This document shows, one piece after another, positions 30,409 to 33,279 of a DNA stretch of 64,000 nt. The translations under genes and the position numbers were made by a program. The notes beneath the pieces were generated by a model. It searched no databases, was not told the origin of the DNA, and saw nothing but the letters and a program-made list of their open reading frames with translations. Origin of the DNA: Stenotrophomonas aracearum (GTDB lineage: Bacteria; Pseudomonadota; Gammaproteobacteria; Xanthomonadales; Xanthomonadaceae); NCBI RefSeq assembly GCF_031834615.1, contig NZ_CP115543.1:3731001-3795000 (forward strand), written 5' to 3'. Numbering within the stretch: the first letter of the stretch is position 1; the number at the start of each line of letters is the position of its first letter.

Positions 30409-31026
30409 ATGCTGCTCGCTGTCATCTACCTCATCGCCATTTCCGCTGAAGCCATGACCGGCGCCCTGTCCGCGGGCCGGCGACGCATGGACCTGTTCGG
30501 CGTGGTCATCATCGCCTGCGTCACCGCGCTGGGCGGCGGCTCGCTGCGCGACATCGTGCTCGGCCATTACCCGCTGGGCTGGGTCCAGCACCCGGAGTAC
30601 CTGGGCTTCACCATCTGCGCGGCCTTGATCGCCACCTGGCTGGCGCGCTGGATGCATCATTTCCGCCGCACCTTCCTGGTGCTGGATGGCCTGGGGCTGA
30701 TCGCGTTCACGCTGATCGGGTGCGCCGTGGCGCGCGACGCCGGCCACTCGGTGCCGATCGTGTTGATCGCAGGCATGCTCACCGGCGCTTTCGGCGGCGT
30801 GCTGCGCGACGTGCTGTGCAACGAAGTGCCGCTGATCTTCCAGAAGGAGCTGTACGCGGTGATCACGCTGTTTACCGGTGCCGCGTGGCTGGGCCTGCTG
30901 GCGCTGGGCGTGTCGCTCAATGCGGCCACGCTCTGGTCGCTGGGCGGCGGCTTTGCATTGCGCCTGCTCGCGATCCACTACAAGTGGGAAATGCCGAAGT
31001 TCGTCTACCGTGACGAAGTGCACTGA
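30409..31026 (+). CDS. Trimeric intracellular cation channel (TRIC/YicG-like) membrane protein
   Basis: The 205-residue protein has seven hydrophobic segments. Two UPF0126 repeats carry the diagnostic glycine motifs: [19 protein letters not shown] and [20 protein letters not shown]. Such bacterial TRIC homologues are potassium-selective channels in some studied members. The 3' end overlaps the convergent GNAT toxin gene by 22 bp. Confidence 0.88.
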
Positions 31027-31496
31027 AGCGGCAACATCACCGTGAGCGGATGGATCGGTGACACGATGAACCCGTGCTTGAGATAGAACGCCTTGGCCGG
31101 TTCATCGATGGCGTGGCAGAGCAATGCACGGGCACCCAGCTGGCCGCAGGCCTGCAAGGCGCGCAGCACGGCATCTTTCAGCAGGCCCTGGCCGATTCCC
31201 TGCCCGGCCCACTCTGCATGCACGGCCAGGCGCCCGAGCACGATGACCGGGATCGGATCCGGCATGTTGCGACGGATCCTGCCTGGCGCAGTGTCGTGCG
31301 ATATCCCGCCAGCGGAAAGCGCGTAGTAGCCGACCACGCGTTGCTGCTCGTCGCAGCTGACAAAACACCGCGAAGCGCCCGACGCCTGGTTCTGGTGCGC
31401 GCGCTCAAGCAGCCACCGGGTCAGCGCAGGGGCGCTGCAGCGGAAGCCATCAAGCAGATGTTCCGCCTGCAGCGGTACGGGAGCGGAGAGCCGCAA
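31005..31496 (-). CDS. GNAT acetyltransferase toxin (TacT/AtaT-like)
   Basis: The 163-residue protein is a GNAT acetyltransferase with [20 protein letters not shown] (the acetyl-CoA loop), [17 protein letters not shown] and [13 protein letters not shown]. Toxins of this size, paired with DUF1778 antitoxins, acetylate aminoacyl-tRNAs and stop translation. It starts 4 bp after the antitoxin stop codon, the usual antitoxin-then-toxin order. Its 3' end runs 22 bp into the neighbouring gene on the other strand. Confidence 0.88.
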
Positions 31497-31500
31497 GGGC

Positions 31501-31770
31501 TTACCGCTCCCAGGGTGCGGGCGTGCTCAACAGCCGGCGCAGCGCCGGGTTGTCTTCGAGCGGCGCGTCCAGCAGTGCATTGAACCGCTGCAGCTGCTCC
31601 GCACTCACGTTGAACTGCGTCTGGTCGGCCAGGACTTCGCGCGCCTTGTCGCACGCCGCGTCGAGGATGAACTCGGTGCGGTTCACACCGCTGATCTGCA
31701 CGGCGCGATCGATCAGATCCTGCTTGTCGGCCGGTGCGCGGAAATTGATGACCTTGCTTGCGGTTCCCAT
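31501..31770 (-). CDS. DUF1778 antitoxin
   Basis: The 89-residue protein has a ribbon-helix-helix segment (KVINFRAPADKQDLIDRAVQ; VNRTEFILDAACDKAREVL), typical of DUF1778 antitoxins. It has a C-terminal tail that would wrap the toxin. The ATG at 31770 is chosen over one 36 bp upstream because that one overlaps the -10 element. It would neutralise the GNAT toxin and repress its own operon. A likely promoter lies just upstream. Confidence 0.88.
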   Translation of the reverse strand: MGTASKVINFRAPADKQDLIDRAVQISGVNRTEFILDAACDKAREVLADQTQFNVSAEQLQRFNALLDAPLEDNPALRRLLSTPAPWER

Positions 31771-31804
31771 GGGGAGCACTCGCACGTTGCTGGATTGTGC
31801 ATAC

Positions 31805-31833
31805 ATTGTACATACACCTTGTGGAGCTCTCAA
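31805..31833 (-). promoter_or_regulatory. Promoter of the toxin-antitoxin operon
   Basis: On the minus strand TTGAGA (31833-31828) and TACAAT (31810-31805) are separated by exactly 17 bp, 34 bp before the antitoxin ATG. The -10 region contains a direct repeat of TGTATG, 11 bp apart, a plausible antitoxin-binding site. No clear Shine-Dalgarno precedes the ATG. Confidence 0.75.
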
Positions 31834-31921
31834 GCGAGGCCTGAAGTCTGCGCCACTTGGGTTGGGTGTATCCAATTGATTCTAATTAACAAACCAGGGA
31901 TTTCAGTAGGCGTGGTCTTTC

Positions 31922-31955: not shown

Positions 31956-33029
31956 TCAGGCGGCCGCTGCCAGACGGCGTGCACGCCGCGCGCGCACCGC
32001 CTGGGCCAGCGATTCCAGCACCTCCAGCGAGGTGTCCCAGCTGATGCAGCCGTCGGTGATGCTCTGGCCGTAGGTCAGCGGCTGGCCTTCCACCAGGTCC
32101 TGGCGACCGGCGACCAGGTGGCTTTCCACCATCACCCCGACGATGCGCTCTTCACCGCCGGCCAGCTGCGCGTTGATGTCGGCAACCACCTTGGGCTGGT
32201 TTTCCGGATTCTTGCTGCTGTTGGCGTGGCTGGCATCGATCATCAGCCGCGCCGGCAGGTGCGCCTTGCCCAGGGTCTGGCTGGCCGCATCCACGCTGTC
32301 CGCGTCGAAGTTCGGCTGTTTGCCGCCGCGCAGGATCACATGGCAGTCCGGGTTGCCGGCGGTGGCGACAATGGCGGTGTCGCCCTGCTTGGTGACCGAC
32401 AGGAAGTGATGCGGGTTGGAGGCGGCGCCCACTGCATCGGCGGCGATCTTGATGTTGCCGTCGGTGCCGTTCTTGAAGCCCACCGGGCACGACAGCCCCG
32501 ACGCCAGTTCACGATGCACCTGGCTTTCAGTGGTGCGCGCGCCGATCGCGCCCCAGGCCACCAGGTCGGCGATGTACTGCGGCGAGATCACGTCAAGGAA
32601 TTCCACGCCGGCCGGCAGGCCCAGCTTGTTGATGTCGCGCAGCAGGCCGCGGGCGATGCGCAGGCCCTTGTTGATCTGGAAGCTGCCGTCCAGGTCCGGA
32701 TCGTTGATCAGGCCTTTCCAGCCGACGGTGGTGCGCGGCTTCTCGAAGTAGACGCGCATGACGATCTCCAGATCGCCGGCGTAGGCGTCGCGCAGCGGCT
32801 TGAGGCGATGGGCGTATTCGATGGCAGCCACCGGATCGTGGATCGAGCACGGGCCGATCACCACCGCCAGGCGGTCATCTCGGCCATGCAGGATCTCGTG
32901 CAGCGCCGTGCGCGAGGCACTCACCGTATCGGAGGCTTCGTCGTCGCAGGGCAGCATGGCGATCAGCTGCGCCGGCGGGGTCAACGGTTCGAGTTTTCGG
33001 ATGCGCAGGTCGTCGGTGTGCGGGGGCAT
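31956..33029 (-). CDS. aroG: 3-deoxy-7-phosphoheptulonate synthase (DAHP synthase, AroG type)
   Basis: The 357-residue enzyme makes DAHP from phosphoenolpyruvate and erythrose-4-phosphate, the first step of the shikimate pathway. It has the type I alpha pattern: VVIGPCSIHDPVAAIEYAHR, VYFEKPRTTVGWKGLINDPD, then SHANSSKNPENQPKVVADI and the C-terminal SITDGCISWDTSLEVLESLA. The length fits the AroF/G/H family; which amino acid inhibits it cannot be read with confidence. Upstream sequence codes a Tyr/Phe/Trp-rich leader peptide followed by an intrinsic terminator, so transcription attenuation in response to aromatic amino acids is very likely. A GGAG-like signal precedes the ATG. Confidence 0.92.
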   Translation of the reverse strand: MPPHTDDLRIRKLEPLTPPAQLIAMLPCDDEASDTVSASRTALHEILHGRDDRLAVVIGPCSIHDPVAAIEYAHRLKPLRDAYAGDLEIVMRVYFEKPRTTVGWKGLINDPDLDGSFQINKGLRIARGLLRDINKLGLPAGVEFLDVISPQYIADLVAWGAIGARTTESQVHRELASGLSCPVGFKNGTDGNIKIAADAVGAASNPHHFLSVTKQGDTAIVATAGNPDCHVILRGGKQPNFDADSVDAASQTLGKAHLPARLMIDASHANSSKNPENQPKVVADINAQLAGGEERIVGVMVESHLVAGRQDLVEGQPLTYGQSITDGCISWDTSLEVLESLAQAVRARRARRLAAAA

Positions 33030-33072
33030 GGGGGGTCTCCTGGAAGGTGGGGGTCCCCAGCGCGGCGGCAAC

Positions 33073-33102
33073 AAAAAAGCCGCCAGGTGCGCTGGCGGCT
33101 TT
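33073..33102 (-). terminator. Attenuator terminator before the DAHP synthase gene
   Basis: On the minus strand a stem AAAGCCGCCAG / CTGGCGGCTTT with a 5-nt loop is followed by a run of six T. It lies between the leader peptide and the DAHP synthase start, about 44 bp before the ATG, so most transcripts would end before the gene. A copy of the 3' arm core (CCGGCGG, minus strand, 33155-33149) in the leader could pair with the 5' arm and form the antiterminator. Confidence 0.85.
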
Positions 33103-33125
33103 CGGGTATGCGTCTGAAGCTTTCT

Positions 33126-33206
33126 TCAGGTTGAGCGCATGCCTTCCTCCGCCGGTGGCTTCGGAAAGTAATACCAAAAGTAGGAATTGGCGGGGCGTGC
33201 GTTCAT
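33126..33206 (-). CDS. Aromatic leader peptide controlling the DAHP synthase gene
   Basis: This is a 26-residue ORF. Codons 9-14 (33182-33165) encode YFWYYF: six aromatic residues in a row with all three end products of the pathway. The sequence before is MNARPANS. After the aromatic run comes PKPPAEEGMRST and a stop. An intrinsic terminator follows 24 bp after the stop codon. The organisation is that of a ribosome-mediated attenuator: a ribosome stalled at the YFWYYF codons would leave CCGGCGG free to pair with the terminator's 5' arm. No clear Shine-Dalgarno precedes the ATG. A TTATCT -10-like element lies only 10 bp upstream, so the leader mRNA may be almost leaderless. Confidence 0.85.
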   Translation of the reverse strand: MNARPANSYFWYYFPKPPAEEGMRST

Positions 33207-33279
33207 TGGGGACTATAGATAACACAGCTTTTGTGCGACGCAAAATGTTTCATTCGCAACTGCGGTCGCAGCCGGCCAA

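Follow-up and report, generated by a model that had tools for sequence, protein, structure and literature searches.

An aromatic leader peptide and a predicted ribosome-controlled attenuator upstream of class I DAHP synthase genes in Stenotrophomonas and other Proteobacteria

The leader region of aroG

The window, i.e. the whole stretch of 64,000 nt of Stenotrophomonas aracearum DNA that was analysed, carries on its minus strand a class I-alpha DAHP synthase gene (aroG). The encoded protein matches Pfam DAHP_synth_1 with 319.5 bits and NCBIfam aroFGH with 536.3 bits (cut-off 173.2). The gene and its upstream region comprise the following features, given in the direction of transcription.

34994-33348, minus strand: groEL (Pfam Cpn60), upstream neighbour of the leader, with its own hairpin and T-run near 33306-33281
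33238..33243, minus strand: -35-like TTGCGT of the predicted leader promoter, 16 nt 5′ of the -10 hexamer
33216..33224, minus strand: extended -10 TGT-TATCTA of the predicted promoter, recognized by motif conservation
33126..33206, minus strand: leader ORF of 26 codons, MNARPANSYFWYYFPKPPAEEGMRST, read from the sequence and without a Shine-Dalgarno site
33165..33182, minus strand: control codons 9-14, UAC UUU UGG UAU UAC UUU (Y9 F10 W11 Y12 Y13 F14)
33149..33155, minus strand: segment 2, CCGGCGG, a copy of the terminator 3′ arm and 5′ strand of the predicted antiterminator
33105..33143, minus strand: predicted inner antiterminator stems GG/CC and AUGCG/CGCAU, which flank the stop-codon hairpin
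33114..33129, minus strand: hairpin CUGAAG-AAAG-CUUCAG over the stop codon (arms 33129-33124 and 33119-33114), predicted tip of the antiterminator
33128-33126, minus strand: leader UGA stop codon, spanned by the CUGAAG/CUUCAG hairpin
33073..33101, minus strand: intrinsic terminator, stem AAGCCGCCAG-CGCAC-CUGGCGGCUU (-17.5 kcal/mol) and U-tract, with the stem at 33101-33077 and the U-tract at 33078-33073 as read from the sequence
33091..33099, minus strand: segment 3, GCCGCCAGC, the terminator 5′ arm and also the 3′ strand of the predicted antiterminator
31956..33029, minus strand: class I-alpha DAHP synthase gene of the aroFGH family (aroG), ATG at 33029

The elements that an earlier note had picked out of this sequence were all recovered. 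They are the 26-codon ORF with YFWYYF at codons 9-14 (33206-33126, minus strand), the intrinsic terminator ahead of the DAHP synthase start (33101-33073), the CCGGCGG copy of the terminator 3′ arm core (33155-33149), which pairs at six of seven positions with CCGCCAG of the 5′ arm, and a second small hairpin, CTGAAG/CTTCAG, over the leader stop, which is genuine and would form the apex of a longer antiterminator. The window has 1585 short ORFs of 8-45 codons, with nested starts included, and only the leader ORF has at least five aromatic residues in eight codons. The RNA from 33210 to 33064 folds with -54.5 kcal/mol, below all 200 shuffles (200/200, z -4.0). A simple terminator scan of the window missed the leader terminator, probably because A-U pairs pull part of the U-tract into the stem.

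Two further observations concern the immediate surroundings. A sub-threshold Rfam match to the Xanthomonas sRNA asX2 (23.7 bits, threshold 70) lies on the plus strand at 33041-33101, opposite the terminator, and probably reflects the terminator hairpin only. Just 3′ of aroG, on the minus strand, follow genes for a TacA1-like antitoxin (31501-31875; Pfam, 76.8 bits) and a GNAT acetyltransferase (31005-31496), which look like a TacAT-type toxin-antitoxin pair.

Conservation and comparative evidence

Within the genus, 25 genomes including the window's own were searched, and each has the class I gene with an aromatic leader. An even draw of 250 Xanthomonadales genomes yielded 67 matches, from which two short fragments with E about 5e-4 (G120 and G190) were left out; the class I gene is thereby counted in 65 of the 250 genomes, and the leader precedes 64 of these 65 genes. 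The sole exception (L148, genome G247) has an upstream sequence that looks unrelated, and the idea that an Rfam element accounts for the missing leader was discarded for want of any Rfam match. Among the best 80 (of more) named class I loci from a protein search, 55 have a leader and 25 do not. These calls were made partly by eye; one locus of the group without a leader (L079) has only 49 nt of upstream sequence, and a Chloroflexota MAG (L102), counted as having a leader both among the 55 and in the tree described below, is doubtful. Leaders are found, for instance, in Xanthomonas, Dyella, Rhodanobacter, Burkholderia, Paraburkholderia, Caballeronia, Cupriavidus, Massilia, Rugamonas, Janthinobacterium, Bradyrhizobium, Mesorhizobium, Devosia and Methylosinus. 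The set also contains five enterobacterial and two Vibrionaceae loci, along with Rhodocyclaceae and Zoogloeaceae loci (Azoarcus, Thauera), none of which showed a leader. In the Chloroflexota MAG, an ORF beginning MSRYFSFFSWYGYF... and a hairpin GAGAAGGGCG/CGCCCTTCTC with a poor T-run stand before the DAHP synthase gene, perhaps as an independent case. On a tree of 93 DAHP synthases, the leader label needs 9 changes, compared with a mean of 23.0 after shuffling (0 of 500 shuffles as low); the leader is thus clustered on the tree, yet not confined to one clade.

The comparative analysis relied on 113 distinct loci in which both a leader and a terminator were called, with duplicate sequences collapsed. 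Five loci with a wrongly picked ORF or of doubtful status (L047, L061, L078, L084 and L102) had been removed by hand, and five others (L054, L056, L069, L138 and L160) have a leader but a terminator that the simple finder did not call. For the covariation alignment and the covariance model, 43 of the 113 loci were hand-picked for diversity over three groups. The interior-fold and switch calculations cover the 111 loci with a pairing score of at least 14, and the start-region test covers 108.

The terminator covaries across relatives: in the 43 sequences, 95.6% of cells are paired and 26 cells are changed on both sides, a number that 0 of 500 shuffles reached. One of its pairs is G-C in 22 and A-U in 17 of the 43 sequences. 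The alternative pairing of segments 2 and 3 is also preserved, with 89.4% of cells paired, compared with 16.6-56.3% when the segments are slid. This pairing has a covariation score of 0.084, a value reached in 7 of 500 shuffles, with slid controls at 0.051 or less. Seven cells are changed on both sides, a count reached in 8 of 500 shuffles, although a control slid by +2 gives nine, and the number of pairs with changes on both sides was reached by 361 of 500 shuffles. The 2:3 pairing thus rests more on conserved pairing than on covariation. The layout is regular. In 105 of the 113 distinct loci, GGCGG forms part of the best match to the 5′ arm of the terminator, and this match starts 8-19 nt 3′ of the last aromatic codon; the shuffle p of the 2:3 match is ≤0.05 in 70 loci and ≤0.01 in 24. 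The interior of the antiterminator is more stable than shuffled sequence over the 111 loci (mean z -1.34), with values of -1.63 in Xanthomonadaceae (44 loci), -1.42 in other Xanthomonadales (29), -1.80 in Hyphomicrobiales (10) and -0.63 in the rest (28). In 42 Xanthomonadaceae sequences, 86.6% of the cells of the inner antiterminator stems pair, and covariation of the antiterminator is slight there because the pairs hardly vary. A hairpin of the start region with the stretch 3′ of segment 2 (1:2) was rejected as a general feature; its mean z is -1.61 in Xanthomonadaceae (44 loci), where it is supported, a weak -0.68 in other Xanthomonadales (29) and +0.27 elsewhere (35), where it is absent.

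The covariance model (R1) was searched in 369 genomes of the class, with 10 candidates scored per genome under strict filters. At least seven places reached 45 bits or more, and 7/7 have an aromatic leader and a downstream DAHP synthase. Among the matches listed, 26 of 30 loci were inspected; the 19 inspected at 38.7 bits or below have no accepted aromatic leader with a DAHP synthase gene and resemble ordinary terminators. One match of low score (L233), with four aromatic residues in eight codons, was read as chance. A DNA pattern of three repeats (CTGGCGG-CCGCCAG-CTGGCGG) proved a poor finder: in 398 genomes of the phylum it hit 25 places in 24 genomes, of which 10 resemble the leader by eye, while a reversed control matched in 6 genomes and the window itself was missed.

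These data bear on a rival reading in which an aromatic ORF stands by chance beside an ordinary terminator. The window taken alone gives it some room, as its contiguous GGCGG/CCGCC match is 5 bp long and not significant (shuffle p 0.19 for the outer pairing), and terminators with a CCGCC core are common, as the low-scoring R1 matches illustrate. Against chance stand the conservation over three proteobacterial groups, the covariation and the fixed layout; a chance ORF is ruled out by conservation together with its standing as the sole aromatic-rich ORF of the window, and the reading as a whole is exceedingly improbable. It is conservation, rather than the window sequence by itself, that carries the observation. 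The earlier note had asked for an alignment of relatives, and this alignment returned Phe, Tyr and Trp together in 73/73 distinct Xanthomonadales leaders, a covarying terminator and the alternative pairing; its view of the region as a leader-peptide attenuator before the DAHP synthase gene is supported by the same three features.

Predicted start, switching and sensed amino acids

The leader start differs from that of aroG. An SD-like 4-mer 4-20 nt 5′ of the leader start is present in 0/73 Xanthomonadales, 0/10 Hyphomicrobiales and 1/30 other loci, whereas the corresponding counts at aroG starts, which are approximate since they were taken from the protein alignment, are 57/73, 10/10 and 24/30. 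In 72 of the 73 distinct Xanthomonadales loci, TGnTAn ends 6-9 nt 5′ of the leader start, with no occurrence in the control upstream of aroG; this pattern was chosen after viewing the alignment and is thus partly post hoc, a stricter first -10 pattern having been found in 2/73. TTGC is enriched at columns -37 to -34 before the leader start of the same 73 loci. In Hyphomicrobiales, a TGAC-type -35 and a CTA-type -10 ending 7-8 nt 5′ of the ATG occur in 7/10 loci. A promoter ahead of the leader ORF, one of the features by which leader-peptide attenuators are recognized, was thus found by motif alone. The bases just 5′ of the ATG are mostly C, which makes the A of the leader start codon the probable first transcribed base. 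Transcription is likely to start at or adjoining this A, and the leader mRNA, with a predicted start just 3′ of the extended -10 and devoid of a Shine-Dalgarno site, is probably leaderless. In Burkholderia-type loci, a TATAAA-like box seen by eye lies nearly 40 nt upstream, so that a leaderless start would not hold there.

On this basis, the stretch 5′ of aroG is predicted to act as a ribosome-controlled transcription attenuator on the class I DAHP synthase, off by default, a reading to which a probability of about 0.86 is given. Transcription would start at the A of the leader ATG, as seems likely, and the ribosome would therefore load without a Shine-Dalgarno site. A shortage of Phe-, Tyr- or Trp-tRNA would hold the ribosome at codons 9-12. 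Segment 2 would then stay accessible and form, together with segment 3, a long hairpin with its tip over the stop codon. Once this 2:3 hairpin has formed, the terminator is predicted to come too late and aroG would be transcribed. With an ample supply of all three, translation would proceed to the stop codon, where the ribosome would mask the inner antiterminator stems, so that the terminator would form. In an RNA free of ribosomes, pairing between the start region of the leader and the stretch 3′ of segment 2 is predicted for Xanthomonadaceae, which would make off the default state. If this is true, one short leader senses all three end products at their common first step.

The switch was computed with ViennaRNA and a masked ribosome, whose footprint was assumed to reach 18 nt upstream and 13 nt downstream of the first nucleotide of the A-site codon. 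In the window RNA ending with segment 3, stalls at codons 9, 10, 11 and 12 give 2:3 probabilities of 0.92, 0.98, 1.00 and 0.99, respectively. These codons specify Tyr, Phe, Trp and Tyr, and thus all three amino acids fall within the effective stretch. The probability drops to 0.03 and 0.02 for stalls at codons 13 and 14, where segment 2 is not freed, to 0.14 once the ribosome has reached the stop codon and to 0.01 if the RNA carries none. In the complete window RNA, the terminator is favoured at equilibrium in every case, and the switch must therefore be kinetic, i.e. depend on the order of folding. Over the 111 loci, the 2:3 probability for the best stall exceeds 0.5 in all 111; it is below 0.5 at the stop codon in 74 and without a ribosome in 80. 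One locus of the same genus (L008) keeps 0.97 at the stop codon and shows no switch-off. A complete switch, defined as a mid-run stall above 0.5 with both the stop and the ribosome-free state below 0.5, is obtained in 42 of 73 Xanthomonadales loci, where shuffles predict 14.7. Elsewhere, it is obtained in 13 of 38 loci, no better than the 10.1 predicted by shuffles. The computed switch thus has good support in the window's own order and none above shuffles elsewhere. Of the other features by which leader-peptide attenuators are recognized, the window has a run of aromatic codons, a terminator between ORF and gene and an antiterminator that opens on stalling, the last by computation only.

Besides the 73 Xanthomonadales leaders, the 10/10 Hyphomicrobiales leaders also contain Phe, Tyr and Trp together, while among 30 other leaders, mostly of Burkholderiales, Phe and Tyr occur in 30/30 and Trp in 15/30. 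Codon choice is skewed as well. In Xanthomonadales, UUU accounts for 151 of 183 Phe codons in leaders (83%) compared with 19 of 395 in aroG stretches (5%); the corresponding counts are 15/15 and 5/55 in Hyphomicrobiales, and 89/126 and 37/203 in the other loci. In the window, both Phe codons of the leader are UUU, which is used for 0 of the 16 Phe codons of groES, groEL and aroG. The skew of Tyr codons towards UAU is smaller in Xanthomonadales (87/224 in leaders, 50/368 in aroG) and absent in Hyphomicrobiales (13/27 and 23/49), the other loci having 34/66 and 52/204. All these counts are non-independent, as the loci are related. The UUU skew beside genes that use UUC suggests that codon choice, in addition to amino acid choice, tunes the sensitivity of the attenuator, and numerous aligned natural variants are at hand for testing this idea.

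The same data leave space for a narrower version of the attenuator, in which only a shortage of Phe, or of Phe and Tyr, would count and the Trp codon would be tolerated without a role. Such a restriction, possible if rather doubtful, finds an analogue in Corynebacterium glutamicum, where a Phe-Tyr-Phe leader (AroR) is reported to answer to Phe and not to Tyr (PMC11802643). It would agree with the half of the leaders outside Xanthomonadales and Hyphomicrobiales that lack Trp (15/30), with the strong skew of Phe codons to UUU where Tyr codons are skewed less or not at all, and with the composition of the window run, in which W occurs once, Y three times and F twice. It is opposed by the constancy of Trp, which no leader lacks among the 73 distinct ones of Xanthomonadales and the 10 of Hyphomicrobiales, and by the place of the Trp codon in the window, as the antiterminator probability peaks for a stall at this codon 11. 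A response of the full attenuator to shortage of each of Phe, Tyr and Trp is what we infer from the codons.

Another reading, compatible with attenuation, would make the terminator constitutive and the ORF mainly a source of a trans-acting small RNA or peptide, as has been described for rnTrpL and peTrpL, products of the trp attenuator of Sinorhizobium meliloti (PMC7298713). The predicted default is indeed termination, and the resulting RNA of ∼135 nt would in turn qualify as a short leaderless mRNA. The part of the peptide conserved after the aromatic run, however, coincides with the antiterminator strand, and at one locus (L037) the RNA of this strand, GGCGGTGG, is kept but read as WRW, versus AV in its relatives, i.e. 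the RNA is retained and the frame changed. The element is also tied to the DAHP synthase gene. A mainly trans-acting product is accordingly an improbable account of the leader.

Place in the cell and relation to known systems

The aroG product is one of two DAHP synthases of this organism. A class II DAHP synthase is encoded in the own genome and in all 101 genomes of the order searched (101/101). No accepted aromatic leader was found upstream of the class II gene in 30 loci from these genomes (28 with at least 300 nt of upstream sequence), and the own class II locus (L205) has no candidate. Eight class II loci with four or five aromatic residues in eight codons were rejected by eye, seven as hydrophobic MPxW... 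peptides and one as a chance ORF. The short hydrophobic ORF (MPxW...F...) lies about 110-390 nt 5′ of the class II gene (L192, L194, L200, L213, L215, L218 and L219) and perhaps encodes a conserved small membrane protein. With an unleadered class II enzyme in the same genome, the attenuator would control one of two DAHP synthases, and the claim of the earlier note that it sets entry into the shikimate pathway is overstated. More likely, it adjusts the class I enzyme on top of the class II enzyme. In the stretches fetched upstream of trpE and pheA of the own genome, no short ORF with four aromatic residues in eight codons, WW or FFF was present.

That the leader acts instead of TyrR/TrpR control, as had also been suggested, is supported in part only: in the own genome, the TrpR-family protein and the TyrR-type match both fall below the cut-offs for TrpR and TyrR. 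The sole TrpR-family protein found scores 49.1 bits for YerC/YecD (cut-off 42.2) and 25.5 bits for TrpR (cut-off 67.25), and the sole TyrR-type HTH match is a sigma-54 activator with 238 bits for TyrR (cut-off 576). The YerC/YecD-like gene lies directly 5′ of hisG (L190:1456-1782; about 1773550 on C1 of the own genome) and is probably HisR, in agreement with the HisR described in Xanthomonadales (PMC9413887). The attenuator offers a concrete answer to how bacteria without a recognizable TyrR or TrpR, as checked in the window's genome, may tune aromatic synthesis.

Taken to its full extent, the proposal becomes tentative, falling a little short of an even chance. The leader would be a leaderless, default-off OR gate for shortage of Phe, Tyr or Trp, in which the rare UUU codon amplifies stalls, and it would travel with the class I-alpha DAHP synthase through alpha-, beta- and gammaproteobacteria, providing xanthomonads with an on-demand second entry to the shikimate pathway beside the unleadered class II enzyme.

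No family of Rfam 15 reached its threshold in the window stretch, among the scores listed, or in four further loci (L020, L032, L062 and L148). Phe_leader (RF01859) scores 22.3 bits (E 0.24) against the window stretch, and membership was rejected given its gathering threshold of 55 bits. NCBIfam and Pfam returned 0 families at E up to 10 for four leader peptides, which are so short that the filters may miss them. The literature searched gave no earlier report of a proteobacterial aroG leader, and a prior prediction in older work is possible.

Several known attenuators nevertheless resemble the aroG leader in part. The pheL-pheA attenuator, to which RF01859 refers, likewise combines a leader ORF, a terminator and aromatic control codons, but it senses Phe only and precedes a terminal-branch gene. 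Codons for more than one end product are known from the leaders of Escherichia coli ilvGMEDA and thrABC, which thus share the principle of several end products in one leader and differ in that these are branched-chain amino acids or Thr/Ile.

At DAHP synthase genes, one counterpart is aroR-aroF of C. glutamicum, in which a leader peptide with Phe-Tyr-Phe (AroR) is reported to precede the DAHP synthase gene and ribosome stalling to raise readthrough (PMC4046766, PMC11802643). It belongs to an actinobacterium and has Phe-Tyr-Phe only, and the likeness drawn here is at the level of description. The uORFC-13-1 motif of Acholeplasma also combines a predicted uORF and a terminator before a DAHP synthase gene (aroF); its 24 representatives are reported only from Acholeplasma and environmental sequence, and it has at least one Phe codon and an RBS (PMC8632094). 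In two Vibrio species, a putative attenuator was predicted at a DAHP synthase-tyrA operon, taken from a web database of putative attenuators and with no leader peptide described in the text at hand (PMC1173090); the Vibrionaceae loci sampled here, one Photobacterium and one Enterovibrio, have no aromatic leader. The trpL leader of S. meliloti is alike in that its transcript starts at the leader ATG and that no transcriptional repression is reported in the available part of the paper; it differs in sensing Trp only, in preceding trpE(G) and in that its start site is known, whereas that of the aroG leader is predicted (PMC7298713). Collectively, the mechanism is classical ribosome-mediated attenuation, of a kind already known at DAHP synthase. 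New is the proteobacterial aroG element, which is unusually broad, with three aromatic amino acids in one leader, a probable leaderless start and a UUU skew.
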